A stretch of DNA of 64,000 nucleotides from Pseudooceanicola marinus (GTDB taxonomy: Bacteria > Pseudomonadota > Alphaproteobacteria > Rhodobacterales > Rhodobacteraceae). The notes under the pieces are model-generated. The model made no database searches. It saw nothing but the letters and a program-made list of their open reading frames with translations, and had not been told where the DNA came from. Shown in pieces: positions 6,678 through 59,933 of the stretch. The stretch spans positions 1 through 64,000 of the forward strand of contig NZ_PGTC01000021.1 in assembly GCF_002786295.1 (NCBI RefSeq). The letters run 5' to 3'. Both the position numbers and the translations under genes were made by a program. How positions within the stretch are numbered: the stretch's first letter is position 1; every line of letters starts with the position of its first letter.

Positions 6678-7706
6678 TCATGCCACGACCGCCATCGCCG
6701 GATCTCTGTAATCTTTATTCTTTGTCAGCATCGCCCAGATCTGGCGGGCCATCTTGTTGGCGAGCGCGATCGCGACCAGCATCCTGGGTTTGCGCGCCAG
6801 CATGCGTGACAGCCAGCTGCCCTCCGTAATTGTGCGCTGTCCGAGCCAGTTCAGTCGCGACATTGCGCCGATGATCAACAGGCGTCGGATATCGGCTTGA
6901 CCAGCCTTCGTCATGCGACCAAGGCGCTCCTTGCCTCCGGAGGAATGTTGCCGAGGAACAAGGCCCGACCAAGCCGCAAAGTTGCGCCCGATTTTGAATT
7001 CCACCATGTCGGGACCAAACGCTTCGACTGCAACGGCCGTCAGCGGTCCAACACCCGGCATCGTCTGCAGCCGGCGTGCTCTGTTTGACTGGGTGGCCAG
7101 CGTCTTGAGCTTCTTAGTGCGCTCAATGATGCGCGCGGTTTTCTCTGCGATTTGCCCGAGCAGGTCCAGGCACTCTTCCCGGATCAGCGCGTGCAAGTCG
7201 ACGGTCTCATCCTGCACAAGCGCCGTCATGCGATTGAGGTGGGACATGCCGACCGGAAACACATAGCCGTGCTTATACAGCAGAGCCCGTAAGGCGTTCA
7301 CATCAGCAGTCCGCTGATGCACCAGGTGTTCCCGGCCGCGGAAGACCGCCGCGCAAGACTGCTGCTCGACTGTTTTGGGCTCCACGAAACGCATCTCAGG
7401 CTGGCGTGCCGCAATGACAAGCGCCTCAGCATCGGCCGCATCATTTTTCTGCCGCTTCACAAAAGGGCGCACATATTGCGGTGCGATCAGCTTTACCTCG
7501 TGCCCAAGAGCTTCCATCTCACGGGCCCAAAAATGTGCGCTGCCGCACGCCTCGAAAATCACCATGCTGGGCTCGTGCTGCGCCATGGACGCGGGGAATT
7601 GCTTCCGCGTCAGCTTCTTGCGGAACTGGACTTCCCCCGTTCGAAGGGCACCATGAACTTGAAAAACTGCCTTTGCCAGATCGACCCCAATCATCAGATT
7701 CTTCAT
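6678..7706 (-). CDS. IS110-family transposase (DEDD recombinase), first copy
   Basis: 342-aa IS110-family recombinase. The N-terminal DEDD RuvC-like domain shows IGVDLAKAVFQVHG, FEACGSAHFW and KNDAADAEA. The C-terminal Transposase_20 domain shows TMPGVGPLTA and RQHSSGGKERLG with the serine expected for catalysis. The ATG at 7704-7706 was chosen because AGGAGG lies 8 bases upstream and the family starts here; the frame stays open to 7853 without homology. The gene appears intact. The element inserted into, or recombined with, an IS5-type element whose remnant adjoins at 7787-7920. Confidence 0.9.
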   Translation of the reverse strand: MKNLMIGVDLAKAVFQVHGALRTGEVQFRKKLTRKQFPASMAQHEPSMVIFEACGSAHFWAREMEALGHEVKLIAPQYVRPFVKRQKNDAADAEALVIAARQPEMRFVEPKTVEQQSCAAVFRGREHLVHQRTADVNALRALLYKHGYVFPVGMSHLNRMTALVQDETVDLHALIREECLDLLGQIAEKTARIIERTKKLKTLATQSNRARRLQTMPGVGPLTAVAVEAFGPDMVEFKIGRNFAAWSGLVPRQHSSGGKERLGRMTKAGQADIRRLLIIGAMSRLNWLGQRTITEGSWLSRMLARKPRMLVAIALANKMARQIWAMLTKNKDYRDPAMAVVA

Positions 7707-49286: not shown

Positions 49287-50156
49287 CTACTCAGCGCTCT
49301 GGCCGGTCAGCCAACGGGAGAACGTGCTCATCGCTGGGGTGGCAGGCCTGTCAGACGGCCAGGCGAGGTAGTAACTTCCGACCGAAACGGTGACCCCAAA
49401 CGGCTGCGCCAGGCGACCCTGCGTGATGTAGCTTTCGAACATCGAGATCGGCAGCAGCGCAACGCCCGCGCCTGAGGTTGCCAGTTCGGCGAGTGCCACC
49501 GAGCTGTCGAAGACCGGCCCGGTGACAGGCGGGCAGGGCACGCCCGCGGCCTCGAACCAGCCCGGCCATTCGGCGCTTCGGTAGCTGCGCAGGAGTGTGA
49601 CCTGCCCGAGGTCCGAAGGGTGCAGGAGCCGTGACGCAACGCCAGGCGCGCAGAGCGGCGCCATCGGTGCGTCTGCCAGCGGGATCGCATCGTGGCCGGT
49701 CCAGCCTCCGGTGCCGAAGCGGATCGCCATGTCGAGCCCTTCGCGCAGGATCTCCACGCGGTTGTTGTTGGTGGAGATCCTGAGGTCGATCTCGGGATGG
49801 GCCTGCCGGAACGCCTCGAGCCTTGGCATCAGCCAGCCCATCGCGAAGGTCGTGTTGACGCCGACCTTCAGCACCTCGATGTCGCGCCGCCCGCCGAGCC
49901 GGTCGAGCACCCGCGCCATCGCGTCGAAGCCATGTTCGAGCACGGGGAAGAGCAGGCGGCCCTCGTCAGTCGGCACCAGCCCTTGTGATGTCCTCAGGAA
50001 CAGCGCCGCGCCTAGCAGGTCCTCAAGTCGTGCGACTTGGTGGCTGACGGCAGCTTGGGTGACGCGCAGCTCGATCGCGGCCTTGGTGAAGCTGCCCTGG
50101 CGCATGGCGACCTCGAATACGCGCAGGGCATTGAGCGGCAGGTCGGGGCGGTCCAT
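49287..50156 (-). CDS. LysR-family regulator of beta-lactamase (AmpR/BlaA-like)
   Basis: 289-aa LysR protein. The HTH is LNALRVFEVAMRQGSFTKAA and TQAAVSHQVARLEDLLGAAL. The C-terminal ligand domain has KVGVNTTFAMGWLMPRLEAF and FGTGGWTGHDAIPLADAPM, close to AmpR-like regulators that sense cell-wall fragments. It is divergent from the class A beta-lactamase gene, the usual layout of LysR-controlled beta-lactamases. Confidence 0.9.
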   Translation of the reverse strand: MDRPDLPLNALRVFEVAMRQGSFTKAAIELRVTQAAVSHQVARLEDLLGAALFLRTSQGLVPTDEGRLLFPVLEHGFDAMARVLDRLGGRRDIEVLKVGVNTTFAMGWLMPRLEAFRQAHPEIDLRISTNNNRVEILREGLDMAIRFGTGGWTGHDAIPLADAPMAPLCAPGVASRLLHPSDLGQVTLLRSYRSAEWPGWFEAAGVPCPPVTGPVFDSSVALAELATSGAGVALLPISMFESYITQGRLAQPFGVTVSVGSYYLAWPSDRPATPAMSTFSRWLTGQSAE

Positions 50157-50294: not shown

Positions 50295-51176
50295 ATGCGG
50301 TTCCCCGCTTCCGTCCTGTCGCGTGTCGCGACAGGGCTCACTCTCGGCCTGTTCATGGCCACCGCCTCCCTCGCCGAAACGCCTGTCGAGGCGCTCTCGA
50401 ACACCGTCGCCCGGATCGAAGAGCAGCTCGACGCCCGCGTCGGTCTCTCGCTTGTGGAGACCGGCTCGGGGTGGTCCTGGTCGCACCGCGAGGACGAGCG
50501 TTTCCTCATGAACAGCACGGTCAAGGTGCCGGTCTGCGGCGCCATCCTCGCACGCTGGGACGCGGGCACGCTGTCGCTCTCCGAAGCGCTGCCGGTGCGC
50601 AAGGCCGACCTTGTGCCCTATGCGCCGGTCACAGAGACGCGGGTCGGCGGCACCATGACCCTCGACCAGCTCTGCCTCGCGGCGATCGACATGAGCGACA
50701 ACGTGGCGGCGAACCTCCTGATCGGGCATCTCGGCGGGCCGGAGGCAGTGACGCAGTTCTTCCGCAGCGTCGGCGACATTACGAGCCGTCTCGACCGCAT
50801 CGAGCCCGAGCTGAACGACTTCACGCCTGGAGACGAGCGGGACACCACGAGCCCGGCCGCCATGTCCGAGACGCTGCGGGCGCTGCTGCTGAGCGACGCG
50901 CTGTCTCCGCAGGCCCGCGGGCAGCTGGCGGAGTGGATGCGCCACGGCGGCGTGACCGGCGCATTGCTGCGCGCCGAGGCCGACGACGACTGGCTGATCC
51001 TCGACAAGTCGGGCAGCGGAAGCCACACGCGCAACCTCGTCGCGGTGATCCAGCCTGACGGCGAGGCGCCCTGGATCGCGACGATGTTCGTCTCGGATAC
51101 GGACGCGGAGTTCGAGGCTCGCAACGAGGCGCTGAAGGACCTGAGCAGGGCGGTGGTCGCTGTTGTTCGAGAGTGA
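50295..51176 (+). CDS. Class A beta-lactamase
   Basis: 293-aa serine beta-lactamase with a signal peptide ending SLAE at residue 27-28. Active-site motifs are STVK (catalytic Ser near residue 74), SDN in DMSDNVAANLL, EPELN in the omega loop (general-base Glu) and KSGSGSHTRN in the KTG position. Overall it resembles the Rhodobacter capsulatus and CARB-related group. It hydrolyses penicillins in the periplasm; range cannot be judged from sequence. Confidence 0.93.
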   Translation: MRFPASVLSRVATGLTLGLFMATASLAETPVEALSNTVARIEEQLDARVGLSLVETGSGWSWSHREDERFLMNSTVKVPVCGAILARWDAGTLSLSEALPVRKADLVPYAPVTETRVGGTMTLDQLCLAAIDMSDNVAANLLIGHLGGPEAVTQFFRSVGDITSRLDRIEPELNDFTPGDERDTTSPAAMSETLRALLLSDALSPQARGQLAEWMRHGGVTGALLRAEADDDWLILDKSGSGSHTRNLVAVIQPDGEAPWIATMFVSDTDAEFEARNEALKDLSRAVVAVVRE

Positions 51177-51501: not shown

Positions 51502-51822
51502 TCAGTCCAGTTCTGCCGCGCGGGTTGCGGCGATCTTGTTCAGGGCCTCGAGGATCTGGGCTGGGTCGCCGGCCGCATAGGCTGCGCCAAGGGCTTCGAT
51601 CTCCTGTTTGAGGGTGTCAAAGCTTTGTTTGACCTCGGCGAACATCAGGGGCATGCGCTCGTGGCGGTCGACGAAGGCGTCGATAGTCGTCGCCAGCAGG
51701 TAGAAGGCGGCCGCATGGTCGGGGATCTCGGCGGCCTTTTGCCACGACATCTGCGAAGCTGCCCGGTAGGCATGGATACCGTTGCCCTGTTCGGCGAGCG
51801 TCTCCAGAAGCGGGGTGAACAT
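51502..51822 (-). CDS. 106-aa hypothetical protein at the end of the TRAP-pyr operon
   Basis: Mostly helical small protein (SWQKAAEIPDHAAAFYLLA, VKQSFDTLKQEIEALGAAY). AAGGAG lies 8 bases before ATG 51822, 32 bases after pyrE. I do not recognise a family. Co-transcription with pyrimidine genes suggests an accessory role. Confidence 0.72.
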   Translation of the reverse strand: MFTPLLETLAEQGNGIHAYRAASQMSWQKAAEIPDHAAAFYLLATTIDAFVDRHERMPLMFAEVKQSFDTLKQEIEALGAAYAAGDPAQILEALNKIAATRAAELD

Positions 51823-51854
51823 AGGTGTCTCCTTTCGGAACGGGACGTGAAGGG

Positions 51855-52565
51855 TCAGAAGGAAAGACTGCCGACGCCGCCATGGGCGGCCGACCAGTCG
51901 AGAGGGGCGTCGATGAAGGCCCGCAGCGCATCCAGCGCCGGGCGGGGGAAGCTGTCGCGGGTCTCGGCCTCGGCCAAGATGTCGCCCCAGTTGGCCAGGG
52001 CATGCAGGCGCAGGCCGTGCTGGTCCAGCGCGACACGGGTCTCGGGGAAGATGTCGTAGTGGAACAGCATCAGCACGTGCGACACCTTCAGCCCGGCTTC
52101 GCGCAGGGCCTGACAGAAACGGATCTTCGAGGCGCCGTCGGTGGTCAGATCCTCGATCAGCAGGACCCGCTGGCCTGGGGTCGAGACGCCCTCGATCCGC
52201 GCCGCCGGGCCGAAGCCCTGGGCGCGCTTGCGCACGTATTGCATCGGCAGGCCGGACAGGGCCGCGATCCAGGCGGCGAAGGGGATGCCGGCCGTTTCGG
52301 CGCCGGCGACAGCATCGATGCGGTCGCGCCCGATCTCGGAGTCCAGGATCTCGGTCGCGAAGCCCATCATCATCTCGCGCAGCGCGGGGTAAGAGATTAC
52401 CTTGCGGACATTGATGTAGACCGGGCTGGCCACGCCGGAGGACAGGATGAAGGGCCGCTGGTCCGCGCATTCCACGGCGCCGATGTCCAGCAGCGCCCGC
52501 GCGGTGCGGCGGGCAAAGTCTTTGCGGGTCTCGGGCGAGAGCTGCATTGGCAGGGCTTCCTTCAT
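51855..52565 (-). CDS. pyrE: Orotate phosphoribosyltransferase
   Basis: 236-aa type I phosphoribosyltransferase. ILSSGVASPVYINVRKV and the PRPP motif VLLIEDLTTDGASK at about residues 137-150 identify PyrE. It converts orotate and PRPP to OMP. Overlaps the upstream M20 hydrolase by 4 bases. Length is somewhat above the usual 210-220 residues, with a C-terminal extension LDALRAFIDAPLDWSAA. Confidence 0.9.
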   Translation of the reverse strand: MKEALPMQLSPETRKDFARRTARALLDIGAVECADQRPFILSSGVASPVYINVRKVISYPALREMMMGFATEILDSEIGRDRIDAVAGAETAGIPFAAWIAALSGLPMQYVRKRAQGFGPAARIEGVSTPGQRVLLIEDLTTDGASKIRFCQALREAGLKVSHVLMLFHYDIFPETRVALDQHGLRLHALANWGDILAEAETRDSFPRPALDALRAFIDAPLDWSAAHGGVGSLSF

Positions 52566-53842
52566 TCTTCCGCCTCCAGATAAGCGGAGAGGATCGCCGT
52601 GCCTACGAGGAAATCGCCGATTTCCATCGCTTCGTCGGGATTGTGGCTGCCATTGCGGTTTCGCACGAAGACCATACCGGCGGGAATGCCCGCTTGGGCG
52701 AAGATCGCCGCGTCATGGCCGCCGCCCGAGGGCATGGTGAAGGGCTCGTCCGTGACCCGGGCCATGGCTGTCTCCAGCCCGGCGATGACGGTGGGGTCCA
52801 TAAGGGCAGGGGCCACGGCCACCTCGGCGCCGGTGTCGAAACGCACGCCACGGCTACGGCCGATGTCGTCCATCTGCTCGCGCAGGTAGGCGCGCATCTG
52901 GTCGAGGATCGCCGCATCCTGCGAACGGATGTCGAGCGAGAAGCCCAGCTCGTCCGGAATGCGCGAGATCGCGTGCGAGGCCGGGTCGGTGCCCACGATG
53001 CCCGAGGTCAGCACCAGGTCGCGCCCGGTCCGTAGTAGGTGATCCCAGGTATCGTCCAGCCGGTGCATCAGTTCGGCGAAGGCCAGCACCGGGTCGTGGC
53101 GGTAGGCGCGGGGCACGGCGCCGGAGTGCCCGGCCTCGCCGATGCAGCGCACCAGCCGGTGGCGGAAGTTGCCCCGGATGCCCGAGACGACGGCGGCGGG
53201 CAGGCCCCGTTCGACCAGCAGCGGGCCCTGCTCGATGTGCAGTTCCAGGTAGCCTTCGATCTTTGACAGGTCGCAGATCGGGGTCCGCGCGGCCAGCGGC
53301 GCGGTGTCGATGCCCAGGCCGTCCAGGTGATCACGCAGCGAGCGGCCATCGCCCTTGTGGGCCGCGGCAAGCTCCGCGTCGGGCAATTGCCCGGTCAGCA
53401 TCTTGGAGCCCAGGTAGCAGGCGCCGAACCAGGCGCTTTCCTCGCCGCGCATGGCCAGGCATTTGACCGGGCGCCGGAAGGAACGCCCGCTGCGCGCGGC
53501 GCGGATCAGGACGATCAGCCCCGCCACGACGCCCGCCAGGCCATCGTAGTTGCCGCCCATGGGCACGCTGTCGACATGGCTGCCGATCAGCACCCAGCTT
53601 TCCGCCTGCGCATCCTTGGGCAGGCAGAACAGCAGGTTGCGGCCTGCGTCTTCTTCGACGTGCAGGCCCTCGGTGCGGGCGAAATCGGCCAGCCAGTCCA
53701 GCGTCCGCGTCTCGATGTCCGAAAAGGCAGGGCGGCTGACGCCCGCGCTGTCGGGCGAGAGGGCGCGAATGCCGTCGAAGACCTGCGCCGCCAGGGCGCC
53801 CATGGCCGCATCGTCGTGGCCCTTGAAGGATTGCAGCATCAT
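52562..53842 (-). CDS. M20-family N-carbamoyl-amino-acid hydrolase (ureidosuccinase/HyuC-like)
   Basis: 426-aa zinc amidohydrolase. Metal ligands are seen in GSHVDSVPMGGNYDG, RGEESAWFGACYLGS, HIEQGPLLVERGLP and SGGGHDA. This order is that of HyuC/AmaB, allantoate amidohydrolase and beta-ureidopropionase. Between pyrD and pyrE the best guess for its substrate is N-carbamoyl-L-aspartate, giving aspartate, CO2 and ammonia. Start ATGATG overlaps the pyrD stop. Confidence 0.85.
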   Translation of the reverse strand: MMLQSFKGHDDAAMGALAAQVFDGIRALSPDSAGVSRPAFSDIETRTLDWLADFARTEGLHVEEDAGRNLLFCLPKDAQAESWVLIGSHVDSVPMGGNYDGLAGVVAGLIVLIRAARSGRSFRRPVKCLAMRGEESAWFGACYLGSKMLTGQLPDAELAAAHKGDGRSLRDHLDGLGIDTAPLAARTPICDLSKIEGYLELHIEQGPLLVERGLPAAVVSGIRGNFRHRLVRCIGEAGHSGAVPRAYRHDPVLAFAELMHRLDDTWDHLLRTGRDLVLTSGIVGTDPASHAISRIPDELGFSLDIRSQDAAILDQMRAYLREQMDDIGRSRGVRFDTGAEVAVAPALMDPTVIAGLETAMARVTDEPFTMPSGGGHDAAIFAQAGIPAGMVFVRNRNGSHNPDEAMEIGDFLVGTAILSAYLEAEE

Positions 53843-54765
53843 GCGGCCTCTCCGCCCGGGATCTGCACCGAGCCGATGATCTCGCCGAGCGAGGTGACGC
53901 CCTGCGCCTGCATCCAGTCCGAGAGTTCTGCGATCAGCCGGGCCATGACGGTGGGCGACTGGAAGGTGGCGGTGCCGACCTGCACGGCGGCGGCGCCGGC
54001 GATGAGGAATTCTAGCACGTCGTCCAGCGTGGCGATGCCGCCGCAGCCGATCACCGGCACGCGGCAGGCGTGGGCGCATTGGTAGGTCATGCGCAACGCT
54101 ATGGGCTTCACCGCGGGGCCGGACATGCCGCCCATGACGTTGCCCAGCCTGGGCTGCCGGGTGCGCACGTCGATGGACATGCCAAGCGCAGTGTTCGCGG
54201 TGACGATGGCATCGGCGCCCTCGGCTTCGGCGGCCAGGGCCACGGCGACCGGTTCTCCGGTGTTGGGCGTCAGCTTGGCCCAGAGCGGCAGGTCCGTCTC
54301 GGCCCGCAGGCGGCGCATCACTTCGGCGGTGGTGTCGGGACGCATCGCGAAGGCGTTGCCGTCTGCCTCGATGTTCGGGCAGGAAATATTGGCCTCGATC
54401 GCCGCCACGCCGGGCAGCGAGACCTCGGCGGCGAGGCGGGCGAACTCATCCATCGAATGGGCCGAGATCGAGACCACTAGCGGCGCCTTGTAGTCGGACC
54501 AATAGGGCAGCATCCGGTCGCGGAAATCGTCGATCCCTTTGGACGGGATGCCGATGGCGTTCAGCATGCCGCCCTGCAGGTCGCAGACCCGGGGCGTCGG
54601 GTTGCCGGCGCGCTTGCCGTGCATGATCGTCTTCAACACATGGGCGCCCAGCACATCCAGGTCGAAAACATCCGATAGATCCTCGGAGAAGGTGCCGGAG
54701 GCGGGCATGATCGGGTTGGCGAAGGTCAGCTCGCCGACTTTGACGGAGAGGTCGGAGGTGCTCAT
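53839..54765 (-). CDS. pyrD: Dihydroorotate dehydrogenase, class 1B catalytic subunit
   Basis: 308-aa FMN enzyme with VKVGELTFANPIMPASGTFS, GNPTPRVCDLQGGMLNAIG, SISAHSMDEF, ANISCPNIEADG and PVIGCGGIATLDDVLEF. The short soluble form without a membrane anchor, paired with PyrK, is class 1B. The active-site base position is NISCPN (Cys), as in class 1. It can use NAD through PyrK. Overlaps pyrK by 4 bases. Confidence 0.92.
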   Translation of the reverse strand: MSTSDLSVKVGELTFANPIMPASGTFSEDLSDVFDLDVLGAHVLKTIMHGKRAGNPTPRVCDLQGGMLNAIGIPSKGIDDFRDRMLPYWSDYKAPLVVSISAHSMDEFARLAAEVSLPGVAAIEANISCPNIEADGNAFAMRPDTTAEVMRRLRAETDLPLWAKLTPNTGEPVAVALAAEAEGADAIVTANTALGMSIDVRTRQPRLGNVMGGMSGPAVKPIALRMTYQCAHACRVPVIGCGGIATLDDVLEFLIAGAAAVQVGTATFQSPTVMARLIAELSDWMQAQGVTSLGEIIGSVQIPGGEAA

Positions 54766-55607
54766 GCGATGGCCTCCGAGATGGGAAAGACTGGACCTTC
54801 GCGGCAGACACGGCGGTGGACGACCTCGTTGCCTTCGCGGAAGGGGCGGACGCAGGCCTGGCACATGCCCAGGCCGCAGGCCATCTGCTGCTCCATGGCG
54901 ATTTCGCCGGGGATGCCATGCTTCTGGCCCAGGCGCTGCAGCATGGTCAAAAGACGGCGGGAGCCGCAGGTGTAGAAGGCATCGACACTGCCTGCGGCGA
55001 TGCGCGCCTCAATCAGGGCTTCCAGCGCCGGCACTTCGGACGAGCCGTCTTCGTCATGCACCACGATGACCTCGGCGCCGTAGCTGCGGAAGAGGTCGAC
55101 CGACATGGCCAGTTCCGGGCTGCGGGCCGAGCAGATCGCGGTCAGGCTGCGGCCCTGTTGCTGTGCCATCCGGGCGAGTGGCGCCAGGGTGGCCAAGCCC
55201 ACGCCGCGCGCCACCAGCATCAGGTTCTGCCAGGCGTCGGGCATGGTGAAGCCCTGGCCCAGCGGGCCCAGCACGTTCAGCGTGTCGCCCGCGCGCAGGG
55301 TGGCCAAGCCACGGGTGCCGGCGCCTGCGATCTTGTAGAGGAACTGCAACTGCTCTGCGTGGGCGTCGTAGCCGTAGATCGACATCGGGCGGCGCAGGAA
55401 GGGGTGCTCGCCCTCGGGTACTGGGCAGAGCAACTGGAAGAACTGGCCCGGGGCGCAGTCCAGCACCTCGGCCGGGGCGTCCAGGGTCAGCAGGCGGTAC
55501 TCGCCGTTGACCGGCATGTTCGAGAGTACGATGGCCCGGGCCTCGGCGCAGCGTGCGGTGACACCGGGCGAGGGGGGGACGGACAGGATTGAGGGGATGA
55601 GGGTCAT
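54762..55607 (-). CDS. pyrK: Dihydroorotate dehydrogenase electron-transfer subunit PyrK
   Basis: 281-aa FAD/2Fe-2S protein. FAD-binding FLRRPMSIYGYD, NAD-binding GVGLATLAPLARMA (with RGVGLA in place of GGIG), and cluster ligands CGLGMCQAC plus a Cys 12 residues on (RRVCREGPVF). It moves electrons between NAD(H) and PyrD. Starts just downstream of the TRAP permease gene, 28 bases away. Confidence 0.91.
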   Translation of the reverse strand: MTLIPSILSVPPSPGVTARCAEARAIVLSNMPVNGEYRLLTLDAPAEVLDCAPGQFFQLLCPVPEGEHPFLRRPMSIYGYDAHAEQLQFLYKIAGAGTRGLATLRAGDTLNVLGPLGQGFTMPDAWQNLMLVARGVGLATLAPLARMAQQQGRSLTAICSARSPELAMSVDLFRSYGAEVIVVHDEDGSSEVPALEALIEARIAAGSVDAFYTCGSRRLLTMLQRLGQKHGIPGEIAMEQQMACGLGMCQACVRPFREGNEVVHRRVCREGPVFPISEAIA

Positions 55608-55635
55608 GAGAGGACCTTTCGGGGAAGTGCGCGGA

Positions 55636-56919
55636 TCAGCCGTAGATCAGGCGTGGCACGAAGAGGGATATCTGCGGGATGTAGGTGATCAGCAGGAGCA
55701 CGATCACGTTGACCAGCACGAAGGGCCAGACGCCGCGGATGATGTCGGCCACCGGTTTGCCCAGGGTCGAGGAGGCGACGAAGATGTCCAACCCGAAGGG
55801 TGGGGTGATCATGCCCAGGCAGACGTTGAAGGTGACCAGCATCCCGAAGTGCACCGGATCGATGCCGAAACTCTGCGCCACGGGGTAGAGCGGCGGCACG
55901 AGGACCAGCAGGGTCGAGTTCGGGTCGATGAACATGCCGGCGATGAAGAAGCAGATGTTCACCGCGATCAGGAAGGCGATGCGGCCGGCGTCGGCGCTGT
56001 CCAGCAGCCCCAGGATCGCCGTCGGTACCTGCGCCAGCGTCACGAAGAACGAGATCAGACCCCCCATGGCCAGCAGCACGAAGATGATCGAGGTGTTGAT
56101 CGCGCTGTCTTCGGTGATCTTGACCAGGGCGCCCCAGTTCAGGCTGCGGAAGACTAGGGTCTCGACCAGGATGGCATAGACCACGCTGACGGCGGCGGCC
56201 TCGGTGGGGGTGATCACGCCCGAGTAGATGCCGCCCAGGATGATGACCGGCATGCCAAGCGCCCATTTCGCGTTCCAAATGGCGCGCAGGCGGGCGCCCC
56301 AGGGCAGGCGGTCGCTGTGGCTGACGTTGTCGCGGCGGGCCTGGATCTCGACGAAGATGGCAAAAGCCACGCCGAGCACCAGGCCCACGCCCAGCCCTGC
56401 GGCGAACAGCTGCGAGATCGATGTGCCGGTAATCCAGCCGTATACGATCAGCGTGATTGAGGGCGGGATCAGCAGAGCGGTTTCGGCGGAGGAGACGAGC
56501 AGCCCCAGCGAGAACTTCTCGGAATACCCGGCCTTCCGCATCTCGGGGTAGACCATGCGGCCCATGGCCGCGACGGTGGCGGGGGCAGAGCCTGAGACGG
56601 CGCCGAAGGCCATGGAGCCGCCGACCACCACGTGGCCGATGCCGCCGCGGCTGTGACCGACCAGCGCGGTCACCACGCCCACCAGCTGGCGGGCGATCTG
56701 GCCCGAGCCCATGAGGTTGGCCGCGAAGATGAAGAAGGGGATGGCCAGCAGAGTCGAATGGTCGATTCCGCCGACGATCTTCTGCACCACCGCCGCATCG
56801 GGCAGACGGCCGTAGAAGGCTTCCTTGTAAGCCAGCGCGGGCAGGCCCAGCACCAGGAACATTTCGAAGCCGGCGACAAGCAGCAGCACGGCAAGAAGGA
56901 GGATGAGGGCGAGGATCAT
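55636..56919 (-). CDS. dctM: TRAP transporter large permease (DctM type)
   Basis: 427-aa protein with about 12 helices. FFIFAANLMGSGQIARQLVG, GHVVVGGSMAFGAVSGSAPA, SAETALLIPPSITLIVYGW and ITPTEAAAVSVVYAI are canonical DctM motifs. ATG 56919 overlaps the dctQ stop, excluding the longer open frame. Confidence 0.93.
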   Translation of the reverse strand: MILALILLLAVLLLVAGFEMFLVLGLPALAYKEAFYGRLPDAAVVQKIVGGIDHSTLLAIPFFIFAANLMGSGQIARQLVGVVTALVGHSRGGIGHVVVGGSMAFGAVSGSAPATVAAMGRMVYPEMRKAGYSEKFSLGLLVSSAETALLIPPSITLIVYGWITGTSISQLFAAGLGVGLVLGVAFAIFVEIQARRDNVSHSDRLPWGARLRAIWNAKWALGMPVIILGGIYSGVITPTEAAAVSVVYAILVETLVFRSLNWGALVKITEDSAINTSIIFVLLAMGGLISFFVTLAQVPTAILGLLDSADAGRIAFLIAVNICFFIAGMFIDPNSTLLVLVPPLYPVAQSFGIDPVHFGMLVTFNVCLGMITPPFGLDIFVASSTLGKPVADIIRGVWPFVLVNVIVLLLITYIPQISLFVPRLIYG

Positions 56920-57413
56920 TCTGCCTGCTCCTGTGCGTTGAAACGGTCGATGATACCGAACAGGCTGAGGCCATAGCGCAGCGCCAGCAGCAGGAATCCC
57001 ACGACGGGGGCGAGGTAGATGTAGCCCATGGGCACGCCCAGCGTGGGCGAGGCCTGGCCGGACTTCAGGACGAATTGCACCAGGCTGAAAGCCAACCAGG
57101 CCAAGTAGAGGCCAAAGAACAGGCCGCAAAGGTCGATCAGCTTGCAGACCGCGCGGATGGCGCCGGCCGGTAGACGTTCGCGTAGGTTGGTGATGCCGAC
57201 GTGCTTGCCGCGTTCAAGCGCCAGGCCCAGGGCCAGGAAAACGAGGAAGAGGTTCATCATCCGCACCGCTTCCTCGACCCAGGCGAAGCGCGAGGCGAAG
57301 GTGCCCCCGATTTCGCGGGTGACGACAGAGCCGGTGTAGAGAACCACCATTGCAAGGAAGAGAGCCACCAGAAGGCTGCGCTCGATCGTCCTCAGCAGGG
57401 TCAGGAATTTCAT
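56916..57413 (-). CDS. dctQ: TRAP transporter small permease (DctQ type)
   Basis: 165-aa protein with four helices, including FAWVEEAVRMMNLFLVFLAL and ALERGKHVGITNLRERLP, the DctQ core. ATG 57413 follows a GC-rich gap from dctP containing a hairpin. Confidence 0.92.
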   Translation of the reverse strand: MKFLTLLRTIERSLLVALFLAMVVLYTGSVVTREIGGTFASRFAWVEEAVRMMNLFLVFLALGLALERGKHVGITNLRERLPAGAIRAVCKLIDLCGLFFGLYLAWLAFSLVQFVLKSGQASPTLGVPMGYIYLAPVVGFLLLALRYGLSLFGIIDRFNAQEQAE

Positions 57414-57471
57414 GGGATGTGCCTCGTACAGTCGGGGCGGGCCGCCTGAAGAAGTGGGGCCGGAAGGGGGA

Positions 57472-57495
57472 GGGCCCGCCGCGAAGGACGGGCCC
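57472..57495 (-). terminator. Hairpin between dctP and dctQ
   Basis: GGGCCCG (57472-57478) pairs with CGGGCCC (57489-57495). No U-run; probably tunes receptor versus permease levels. Confidence 0.5.
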
Positions 57496-57519
57496 GGGGA
57501 GCGAAGCCGTGGAAACGGC

Positions 57520-58530
57520 TTAATGAAGGGCCTCGTAGGCTTCTTCGTAGGTGGACAGCAGGGCCTTGCCGGTGTCGCCGGCCTTGGCGACATAGGCCTC
57601 GGAGGCCGGGCCAAAGGTGGCTTCGCGCAGCGCGGCGCGTTCTTCCTCACCGGCGACGCGGACGTTGGTGCCGGCGGCCTCGATGGTTTCCAGCGCTTCT
57701 TCCACAGCGGCGGCCTTGTGGGCGGTCAGCTCGGGGATGACTTCGTGGAAGGCGGTGGTGATCACCTCCTGGTACTCGGCCGGCAGGCTGTCCCACCACA
57801 TCGGGTTGAACAGCACGACGTCCTCCATCGCGCCGTGATCAGAGACCACGAGGTACTCCTGCACCTCGTAGAACTTCATGTTCATGATGGTATCCAGCGG
57901 GTTCTCTTCCCCGTCCACGACGCCGGTCTGCAGCGAGGTGTAGAGCTCGCCGAAGGGCAGGGCGATGGCCGAGGCCCCAAGGGCGTTGAACTGTTCGATC
58001 AGGATCGAGCTGTCCATGACGCGAAACTTCTGGTCGGCGAAGTCGGCCAAGGTGTCGAGCGGCTTGTTCGAGGTGAACTGCTTCTTGCCGTTGGGCCAGA
58101 GCGTCACGGCGAACATGCCCTTGTCCGAGAAGGTGTCCAGCAGCGCCTGGCCGAAAGGACCGTCGCGCAGTTCCTGCGCCTTGGCGTCGTCTTCGGGCAG
58201 AAGGTAGGGGATGTCCATGATCGACACGGCCGGGTTGAAGCCGCCGAGGAAAGCGGCGGGGGCCACGGTGCCCTCGATGGTGCCTAGCTGGACGCCTTCG
58301 TTCATCTGGCGCTGGTTGCCCAGCTGGCCCTGCGGGAAGATCTGGAACTCGACCTCGCCGTCGGTGCGCTCTTTCACCAGTTCGGCAACCTTCTCAAGCG
58401 TCACGTTGCGGCTTTGCGCCGGGCTTTCGAGGTGACCGATTTTGGCGACGTATTCCTGCGCCTGCGCGCCGGAGGCCAGAACCAGGCCCAGTGCGGTCAG
58501 TCCGGAGAGGACGGTGGTTTTGCGGAACAT
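57520..58530 (-). CDS. dctP: TRAP transporter solute receptor (DctP type)
   Basis: 336-aa periplasmic binding protein, signal peptide 1-25 ending SGAQAQ. YVAKIGHLESPAQSRNVTLE, EVEFQIFPQGQLGNQRQMNE and the Arg/Asn carboxylate-binding region GQKFR-like DQKFRVMDSSILIEQFNALG then GVVDGEENPLDTI identify DctP. The Arg in QKFRVM normally clamps the substrate carboxylate, so an organic acid such as orotate or a ureido acid is possible. Confidence 0.92.
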   Translation of the reverse strand: MFRKTTVLSGLTALGLVLASGAQAQEYVAKIGHLESPAQSRNVTLEKVAELVKERTDGEVEFQIFPQGQLGNQRQMNEGVQLGTIEGTVAPAAFLGGFNPAVSIMDIPYLLPEDDAKAQELRDGPFGQALLDTFSDKGMFAVTLWPNGKKQFTSNKPLDTLADFADQKFRVMDSSILIEQFNALGASAIALPFGELYTSLQTGVVDGEENPLDTIMNMKFYEVQEYLVVSDHGAMEDVVLFNPMWWDSLPAEYQEVITTAFHEVIPELTAHKAAAVEEALETIEAAGTNVRVAGEEERAALREATFGPASEAYVAKAGDTGKALLSTYEEAYEALH

Positions 58531-58606
58531 CTGTGACTCCCTGTCATGCTCATCTTGTCTGATGCCTGAAGGATCACGATGGTCGTGCAAGGGGTCAACG
58601 GAAAAA

Positions 58607-58620
58607 TCTAAAAAATGAGA
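58607..58620 (+). promoter_or_regulatory. Putative operator, copy 1
   Basis: TCTAAAAAATGAGA, 77 bases upstream of dctP. The same 14 bases recur at 59844-59857 upstream of the XRE regulator. Confidence 0.6.
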
Positions 58621-58690
58621 CGGCAGGGAAAATTTATCGGATGGTCAGCTTTAGGTCGTCTAGTTTTTGAGCGGAGGGGGTGACGGCCGC

Positions 58691-59572
58691 TTAGCGAATC
58701 CCGTGCCGTTCGATCAGCGCATCGACGTGGTCGGCAGCCTCGCGACCCTTGAGCGAGCTGGTCCAGAGGCGTTGGGTGATCCCTTCGTGCAGCTCCAGCG
58801 CCTCGGGGGCCGAGGTGATCAGGCCGACACCGATCCCGATGTTGGGGTTATGGCCCAGCCGGAAGGGCGAAATGGTCAGAGTCGACTCGCTGCCCTTGCG
58901 CACGATCTGGAAAGAGGTCGCGGGAATCGGCTCGCGCGCGACGCCGACCTGGATTCCGATGAGCGGTTCACGCAGCATCGCCGAGATATGCTGTGCTTCG
59001 CGCAGGGCCATGCGGCGGCGGGCGTCCAGCGTCGCGGGGGGCAGCTCGCTGCGGCCGATCAGGCCCTCGCGCAGGAAGCGTTCGATGTCCGCGTCCGAGA
59101 TGATCGAGGCCAGGTGCGGCCGGCGTTGATCGAAGCGCGTCTTTCTTTTCTTCAGGATATCAAGGATCTGATCGACATCCTTCCCCTGGTCGGCGGTGGT
59201 CGATTCGCGCATCACGTCTGCCAGCACGGCGTCATAGCCGCCCGTGGTGACCAAGTAGGAGATCGGGCTGAAGAGGCCGATGATCTGCTCGCTATCCTCT
59301 TCGATCTGGCGCATCCGCTCGAAGAAGCTGACGGCGTTGTCGACATATTCGATGCCCACGCCCAGCAGGGAGGGCAGGGAAACCTGCAGTTCGTCCGCGA
59401 TGGCGGTCAGCATCTCGATCTTGGCGATTTCGCCTTTTTCGGCGCGGTAGAGCGCTGCGCGAGAGATGCCGAGGCGGGCGGCCAGATCCTCTGGCGACAG
59501 GGCGCGGCCTAGCCTGTGGGCGCGCAACCGGGCGCCCAGCTCGACGAAATTCACCTTGTTTGCCTGCGTCAC
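58691..59572 (-). CDS. XRE-family regulator with C-terminal sensory region
   Basis: 293-aa regulator. HTH LSPEDLAARLGISRAALYRA at about residues 26-45, then EKGEIAKIEMLTAIADEL. The C-terminal 200 residues resemble short-chain acid-responsive XRE proteins, with FRLGHNPNIGIGVGLITSAP. GTG 59572 has GGAGGGG 7 bases upstream; the frame is open a little further. It is transcribed away from an A+T-rich region and likely controls the dctPQM-pyr operon directly downstream. Confidence 0.83.
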   Translation of the reverse strand: MTQANKVNFVELGARLRAHRLGRALSPEDLAARLGISRAALYRAEKGEIAKIEMLTAIADELQVSLPSLLGVGIEYVDNAVSFFERMRQIEEDSEQIIGLFSPISYLVTTGGYDAVLADVMRESTTADQGKDVDQILDILKKRKTRFDQRRPHLASIISDADIERFLREGLIGRSELPPATLDARRRMALREAQHISAMLREPLIGIQVGVAREPIPATSFQIVRKGSESTLTISPFRLGHNPNIGIGVGLITSAPEALELHEGITQRLWTSSLKGREAADHVDALIERHGIR

Positions 59573-59933
59573 GGGCTGGCCCCTCCGGATCTTTCTGACG
59601 GTCCTTGTGGCTGGCGGCGCAATGCGCCCCGGCCATGGTCCGTCTCGGAAATGATCCAATCACGAGATGCAAGCCTCTGCAATCCCAGCTGGATTCGATG
59701 ACTCTCCAAGTTTTGAAGGGAAAACGTCGGCTTTCAGACGAAGGGATCAGGCGCCAATCAGCTGCATTTTTTTAGATCTTCCACATTTGGCGCCCCCTTT
59801 TTGGGCGATTTTTCCCATTTTTTGAGAAGAACGTGCCGCGCAGTCTAAAAAATGAGAGCTGGCGCTTGAATCTCGCGCCGCCTGCCGCTCGGAACTGGGG
59901 CCGAAGTCGTATGCGAAGAAGAGGACATCCCTC
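59573..59933. other. Promoter region of XRE regulator with operator copy
   Basis: A+T-rich stretch at 59760-59860. CGCCC-GGGCG stem followed by ATTTTTCCC (near 59790-59815) could be a terminator. TCTAAAAAATGAGA is at 59844-59857. Confidence 0.45.
59844..59857 (+). promoter_or_regulatory. Putative operator, copy 2
   Basis: TCTAAAAAATGAGA identical to 58607-58620, in the same orientation. It lies 272 bases upstream of the XRE gene start. Confidence 0.6.

Follow-up and report, generated by a model that had tools for sequence, protein, structure and literature searches.

Some cells excrete orotate, and it occurs in the environment, yet genes for its use as food have hardly been described. A 64,000-nucleotide stretch of Pseudooceanicola marinus DNA (contig NZ_PGTC01000021.1, positions 1 to 64,000; hereafter the window) raises the question of what a tripartite ATP-independent periplasmic (TRAP) transporter does in one operon with homologues of the pyrimidine enzymes PyrK, PyrD and PyrE and a hydrolase of the M20 family. 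A first-pass annotation had placed these genes at 51502..59572, downstream of an XRE regulator, and had read them as a system for the import and use of orotate, dihydroorotate or carbamoyl-aspartate; open reading frame (ORF) coordinates and family scans confirm the gene order and coordinates. We consider it likely that this is a regulated orotate-utilisation operon, which would import orotate and then either salvage it through PyrE or break it down through PyrDK, PyrC and M20 to aspartate, CO2 and NH3.

A transporter and pyrimidine enzymes in one operon

Nine genes run in one direction on the minus strand, from window position 59572 to 51502. The dctQ/dctM, pyrK/pyrD, pyrD/M20 and M20/pyrE junctions are 4-base overlaps, and the intergenic gaps measure 160 bases between the XRE gene and dctP (the widest), 106 between dctP and dctQ, 28 between dctM and pyrK, and 32 between pyrE and the last ORF. 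The features, in the order of transcription, are as follows.

59844-59854 (+): TCTAAAAAATG motif 5' of the XRE gene, candidate operator; exact match
58691-59572 (-): XRE-family regulator (HTH_31/HTH_3), GTG start
58607-58617 (+): TCTAAAAAATG motif, 77 bases ahead of the dctP start, candidate operator; exact match
57520-58530 (-): dctP, TRAP solute-binding protein, predicted orotate binder; PF03480, 64% identity to 4NN3
56916-57413 (-): dctQ, TRAP small permease; PF04290, 91.9 bits
55636-56919 (-): dctM, TRAP large permease; TIGR00786 and PF06808
54762-55607 (-): pyrK, predicted electron-transfer subunit of class 1B dihydroorotate dehydrogenase; PF10418
53839-54765 (-): pyrD, predicted class 1B dihydroorotate dehydrogenase; NF005574 and TIGR01037, Cys129 and orotate-site residues kept
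52562-53842 (-): M20 carbamoylase-family hydrolase, predicted N-carbamoyl-L-aspartate hydrolase; TIGR01879, best Protein Data Bank (PDB) match 3n5f
51855-52565 (-): pyrE, second orotate phosphoribosyltransferase; NF001729, best PDB match 4ohc
51502-51822 (-): 106-aa helical protein, co-conserved with the operon; no family match, five-helix model

TRAP transporters are driven by ion gradients, and C4 acids are ligands of many TRAP binding proteins. In the profile scan DctP, DctQ and DctM all exceed their Pfam cut-offs, and a PDB search with the DctP profile returns 4NN3 at the top with 556.9 bits (runner-up 205.8), at 64% identity across 325 residues of the chain. This structure, a solute-binding protein of Maridesulfovibrio salexigens, is described in passages of PMC11668362 as having orotic acid bound and as carrying a lysine in place of the second conserved arginine of the other structures compared; orotic acid is also named among the TRAP ligands of the Enzyme Function Initiative (EFI) survey in an excerpt of a TRAP review (PMC5812351). 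Counted along the profile alignment, the lysine position is K150 of the window DctP. K150, R170, F193 and N210 (window numbering) match residues described for 4NN3 and are invariant in 73/73 DctP relatives, four of which are rows that duplicate a genome. 4NN3 comes from a distant organism, and the protein nearest to it among those fetched (96% identical, from the Desulfovibrio bin L092) heads a dctPQM-M20-pyrC-pyrE cluster that has pyrC and no adjacent pyrKD; in the window it is pyrKD that is present and pyrC that is lacking. Orotate uptake by DctPQM is well supported as a prediction from this likeness, and among the three substrates that the first-pass annotation had left open the 64% match to 4NN3 favours orotate.

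PyrD is above the cut-offs of NF005574 (333.6 vs 269) and TIGR01037 (298.1 vs 270) and below those of every class 2 model listed (TIGR01036, 63.8 vs 200); its best PDB matches are 5ue9, 5ksw and 1ep1. PyrK carries the iron-sulphur domain PF10418 of DHODB above its cut-off (49.5 vs 23.9). The pair fits a class 1B dihydroorotate dehydrogenase and is predicted to be NAD-linked. K45, N69, N126, C129, N131, N191 and T192 of PyrD, which we take to be the catalytic cysteine and orotate contacts of the lactococcal enzymes, are invariant in 54/54 operon homologues (the alignments of PyrD, n = 54, and M20, n = 55, each include four rows duplicating a genome). A 48% identical PyrD homologue in a genome of the same genus (G002) has F69 and A192 at orotate-site positions. 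It is encoded at L027:5290-16886 together with a 53% identical PyrK, amid Rieske oxygenase, asparaginase-family, SnoaL-like, TRAP permease and xanthine-dehydrogenase-like genes; since two orotate-site residues are missing, that cluster probably handles a different heterocycle.

The M20 protein passes the hydantoinase/carbamoylase family model TIGR01879 (260 vs 204), and its best PDB match, 3n5f, is an N-carbamoyl-L-amino acid hydrolase. H89, D100, E134, E135, H202 and H400, presumably the metal ligands and general base, are kept in 55/55 operon homologues. The same alignment holds four further arginines that are nearly invariant, namely R223 and R227 (both 55/55), R294 (54/55) and R245 (52/55, otherwise lysine). 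The two best paralogues in the window genome are about 27-33% identical to the operon protein; one shares just the arginine at 227, and the other has no arginine at any of the four positions. Such arginines would suit, without proving, a substrate that bears another carboxylate, for example carbamoyl-aspartate; together with the operon context they make N-carbamoyl-L-aspartate the predicted substrate.

PyrE passes NF001729 (288.7 vs 245) and falls slightly under TIGR00336 (101.8 vs 106.8), as does the canonical chromosomal PyrE (106.2), to which it is 47% identical. In an unrooted tree that includes only three canonical copies, these cluster together with a support of 1.0, apart from the operon copies. 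The 106-aa protein has no family match in NCBIfam or Pfam and yields a confident predicted five-helix model (pLDDT 91.4); its family (window 51502-51822) comprises 153 homologues found, without a family name. Just downstream of the operon lie a class A beta-lactamase gene of the RCP family (50295-51176, plus strand; 656.6 bits vs a cut-off of 600) and a divergent LysR-type regulator gene (49287-50156, minus strand).

Conservation, regulation and the rest of the genome

The first-pass annotation had suggested searching other genomes for the same gene order. A DctP-alignment scan with one genome per species gave 68 loci, of which 65 are assessable and three (L077, L079 and L107) have too little downstream DNA. 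We call a locus pyr-bearing if at least one of PyrK, PyrD and M20 lies at most 9.5 kb from dctP, which holds for 51/65. Within these 51, PyrD and M20 were each found in 50, PyrK in 49, PyrE and XRE in 47, the 106-aa protein in 38 and PyrC in 18; the sole M20 exception, L058, fell under the coverage limit, yet shows a 59% match. All seven genes from dctP through pyrE are present in 44 loci and share the order dctP-Q-M-pyrK-pyrD-M20-pyrE on one strand in 43/65, with pyrE on the opposite strand in the remaining one (L100). Four loci keep PyrK, PyrD and M20 without PyrE. Because these relatives were fetched by DctP alone, the order is conserved more than chance would give. Record names of the carriers include Rhodobacteraceae, Stappia, Martelella and Chelatococcus, among others; the Betaproteobacteria and the Desulfovibrio-type carriers, two of each, are known from metagenome bins. 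A desulfinase and a CoA-transferase gene at L099 were considered as operon members and rejected, given that an opposite-strand ORF intervenes. Four Alloyangia/Salipiger loci (L046, L047, L048 and L052) have DctPQM, with DctP 85-87% identical to that of the window, and no adjoining pyr genes; a phosphoglycerate mutase gene follows DctPQM in L046 and a similar-sized ORF stands there in the other three.

The dihydroorotase that the first-pass annotation had found missing locally and expected from elsewhere is part of the operon in the 18/51 pyr-bearing loci with PyrC, an E. coli-type dihydroorotase homologue. The gene lies between M20 and pyrE in 16/18 and after M20, with no pyrE found, in two Stappia loci. 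Two operon PyrCs were scanned and both exceed the TIGR00856 cut-off of 293: that of L072 (439), one of the 18, and that of L026 (421), a locus outside the 18 with the same layout. The block dctPQM-pyrKD-M20-pyrC-pyrE is thus complete in some lineages. In G040, the position between M20 and pyrE is taken by a truncated pyrC fragment, a 198-base match at 45% identity within an open frame of 101 aa (L025, about 7205-7470; L108 is on the same contig), which suggests that pyrC was lost in at least one lineage, presumably because another dihydroorotase suffices.

Eight plasmid records hold a DctP relative, and four were examined in detail. The full block is on plasmids of Nitratireductor sp. OM-1 and Paracoccus albus, a Paroceanicella plasmid has the TRAP genes alone, and a Paracoccus seriniphilus plasmid (p420573) has a different cluster. 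The latter (L113) joins a 50% DctP relative to genes for a maleate isomerase and for isochorismatase-family, amidohydrolase, Rieske and xanthine-dehydrogenase-family proteins, and probably serves the uptake of another N-heterocyclic acid. A DctP scan of viral contigs found no relative. Among 147 relatives, including the window genome and a near-identical one, DctP (E <= 1e-85) and a class 1B-like PyrD (E <= 1e-30) each occur in 10 genomes, 7 of which have both (Fisher p 5e-8, uncorrected for kinship).

The motif TCTAAAAAATG has two matches in the window at up to one mismatch, both exact, ahead of dctP and of the XRE gene; with one mismatch allowed, 7/100 shuffles gave at least two. Within 260 bases ahead of dctP, again at up to one mismatch, it was found in 18/26 loci with a co-directional XRE gene, 5/25 with a divergent one and 1/17 with none, counts that are inflated by kinship. 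The motif may be the XRE operator, and the regulator would control the operon and its induction.

The window genome (4.5 Mb, 99.66% complete) encodes a class 2 PyrD at C9:328241-329353 (TIGR01036, 381.4 vs 200) and a canonical pyrC-pyrE pair at C18:322999-324048 (TIGR00856, 427.3 vs 293) and C18:324171-324830 (NF001729, 377.6 vs 245), as well as a type I dihydroorotase above cut-off at C9:83856-85058. The operon pyrD and pyrE are therefore an additional set beside the canonical genes, as the first-pass annotation had supposed; it had also named the lack of any other pyrD or pyrE as the case in which these would be biosynthetic genes only, and both were found elsewhere. That the operon supplies the cell's sole pyrD and pyrE is excluded by the class 2 PyrD and second PyrE. 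The missing dihydroorotase would likewise come from elsewhere, with two encoded in the host. Among the operon-bearing genomes examined, a class 2 PyrD homologue is present in 7/7, a type I dihydroorotase above cut-off in 7/7 and a second PyrE in 6/7. A wider survey of PyrE copies (E <= 1e-20) covered 47 genomes for the 51 pyr-bearing loci, leaving out L058, L065, L062 and L081, and found two copies in 29, one in 17 and none in one.

Elsewhere on C9 of the window genome, at about 560170-563140 (L033:8169-11140), a dihydropyrimidinase gene (TIGR02033, 583.3 vs 393.25) adjoins that of an M20 paralogue whose best model is the allantoate amidohydrolase subfamily (690 vs 452). A PreA-like protein is encoded on another host contig (300.1, under the cut-off of 335), and the dihydropyrimidinase/M20 pair may represent this genome's own uracil (Pyd) pathway.

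Proposed salvage and breakdown branches and the likely substrate

In the proposed pathway, periplasmic DctP would capture orotate and DctQM would import it on the ion gradient. On the salvage branch PyrE would convert orotate to orotidine 5'-monophosphate (OMP), with PyrF needed for the onward step to UMP. On the breakdown branch the NAD-linked PyrD-PyrK would run reductively from orotate to dihydroorotate, the dihydroorotase PyrC, encoded elsewhere in the genome in this strain and in the operon itself in many relatives, would open the ring to N-carbamoyl-L-aspartate, and M20 would split this into L-aspartate, CO2 and NH3. Class 2 PyrD is coupled to quinones and works oxidatively, and a reductive route calls for an NAD-linked class 1B enzyme. 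That nearly every such operon includes PyrDK and M20, and a third of them PyrC, would be understandable if orotate were broken down as well, given that orotate to UMP requires only PyrE and PyrF and leaves PyrD, PyrC and M20 surplus to salvage. The flux may be catabolic, salvage or both.

Related transporters occur with another pyrimidine module. At L105:9860-15316 and L106:153-5529, a related TRAP set is followed directly by a GTP-cyclohydrolase-II-like gene (PRK07198 in L105) and a DUF1688 gene, which we take to be the URC1/URC4 pair of uracil catabolism. The URC pathway is described in excerpts of PMC3869809. The two loci are possibly operons for pyrimidine uptake and URC breakdown, and the pairing of a related transporter with another kind of pyrimidine-breakdown module speaks for a pyrimidine as the substrate. 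The URC4-type DUF1688 (PF07958) was found in 0/7 operon genomes searched, including the window genome, whereas the same search was positive in both the L105 and L106 genomes (2/2); this sets the operon apart from URC catabolism, and we rejected the idea that its PyrE feeds that pathway.

Several observations weigh against an orotate-utilisation operon with a breakdown branch. PyrK is under all four NCBI PyrK equivalog cut-offs (best 130 vs 314), M20 is under the cut-off of its top-scoring subfamily model PRK12891 (386.5 vs 461), the window operon is without a dihydroorotase, and 14/65 DctP loci have no pyr genes nearby. Pure salvage needs just the TRAP transporter and PyrE, and the operon PyrE is the only PyrE found in four Chelatococcus isolates and G104. 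The L105 and L106 bins share synteny and may be a single event, and K150 of DctP also occurs in the 50% identical P. seriniphilus protein of another gene cluster. The last point rules out the lysine as proof of orotate binding; it marks a clade. We do not regard the absence of a dihydroorotase as fatal, given the two encoded elsewhere in the host and the pyrC genes inside relatives' operons. Where the operon PyrE is the sole copy it must also serve biosynthesis. The operon is not purely catabolic everywhere, and the balance of salvage and breakdown probably varies between lineages.

We regard it as unlikely that the operon serves only salvage or biosynthesis, with orotate or dihydroorotate going to UMP, PyrDK as an NAD-linked alternative useful without oxygen and M20 in a side role. 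PyrE in 47/51 pyr-bearing loci and the sole copies in Chelatococcus and G104 would fit, but OMP from imported orotate requires no PyrD, PyrC or M20, and yet M20 is there in 50/51; four loci have PyrK, PyrD and M20 and no PyrE at all, and 29/47 genomes have two PyrEs. It also seems quite improbable that the transporter naturally takes up dihydroorotate or N-carbamoyl-L-aspartate and binds orotate only through its similarity, with PyrC, PyrD and PyrE running forward to UMP and M20 degrading the excess. The PyrC, PyrD and M20 families do all act on or near carbamoyl-aspartate, and the taste of many TRAP binding proteins for C4 acids would suit such a substrate. Against this stand the orotic acid reported in the solved close relative 4NN3 and the uracil-catabolism-type genes carried by two bins without the pyr block. 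A third account, in which pyr-like enzymes are re-used on another N-heterocyclic carboxylic acid, seems very improbable. Its attraction lies in the company kept by the G002 pyrK-pyrD pair (Rieske, asparaginase-family, TRAP permease and xanthine-dehydrogenase-like genes) and by the 50% DctP of the P. seriniphilus plasmid (maleate isomerase, Rieske and xanthine-dehydrogenase-family genes), but the orotate-site residues altered in the G002 protein are invariant in 54/54 operon PyrDs, and PyrE exceeds the orotate phosphoribosyltransferase cut-off NF001729.

Known systems and wider meaning

The proposed breakdown route has a counterpart in Clostridium (Zymobacterium) oroticum, which ferments orotate with dihydroorotate dehydrogenase, dihydroorotase and ureidosuccinase. 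Its dihydroorotate dehydrogenase, according to an extract of PMC8107416 the first to be isolated, is given as class 1B in a title cited in PMC9326563. The same NAD-linked steps from orotate through dihydroorotate and carbamoyl-aspartate to aspartate are predicted here, but in Proteobacteria whose genomes encode a quinone-linked class 2 PyrD as well and whose operon also includes a TRAP importer and a branch through PyrE. Reductive uracil (Pyd) catabolism similarly reduces a ring, opens it and hydrolyses a carbamoyl compound, whereas its substrate is uracil and its enzymes are others; no PreA/PreT dihydropyrimidine dehydrogenase or dihydropyrimidinase is among the operon proteins, PyrD scoring 135.9 against the PreA cut-off of 335. 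De novo synthesis by pyrC, class 2 pyrD and pyrE shares the PyrD and PyrE homologues, but its canonical genes are elsewhere in the genome, and the operon further encodes TRAP uptake and a hydrolase, for which synthesis has no use.

Among the matches listed from open-access PMC titles and abstract openings, none describes an operon joining TRAP uptake, PyrDK, PyrC, M20 and PyrE, and no title or abstract matches 'ureidosuccinase'; the portions of PMC10041152 and PMC8745165 available say nothing on the operon. The binding-protein ligand and the single reactions are already known, and the joint gene cluster appears new among these open-access matches.

We lean, with some reserve, towards a broader claim: that many Alphaproteobacteria and, going by metagenome-bin labels, some Betaproteobacteria and Desulfovibrio relatives possess a dedicated reductive pathway for orotate, sometimes plasmid-borne, as a counterpart to the Pyd pathway for uracil; that the M20 subfamily marked by R223, R227, R245 and R294 would be the ureidosuccinase gene; and that the class 1B enzyme would reverse the orotate/dihydroorotate step with NADH beside a class 2 PyrD. 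Ureidosuccinase, or carbamoyl-aspartate hydrolase, has been known as an activity since the 1950s, and to our knowledge no sequence has been assigned to it; the operon M20 offers a candidate gene. More generally, the operon connects a TRAP ligand assigned by crystallography with a set of enzymes that is nearly complete. Both plasmid records with the full block place pyrD under pyrimidine biosynthesis, and we caution against a default annotation of pyrD and pyrE in clusters of this kind as biosynthetic. A reductive, NAD-linked use of orotate would explain why some Proteobacteria retain a class 1B dihydroorotate dehydrogenase alongside the class 2 enzyme.

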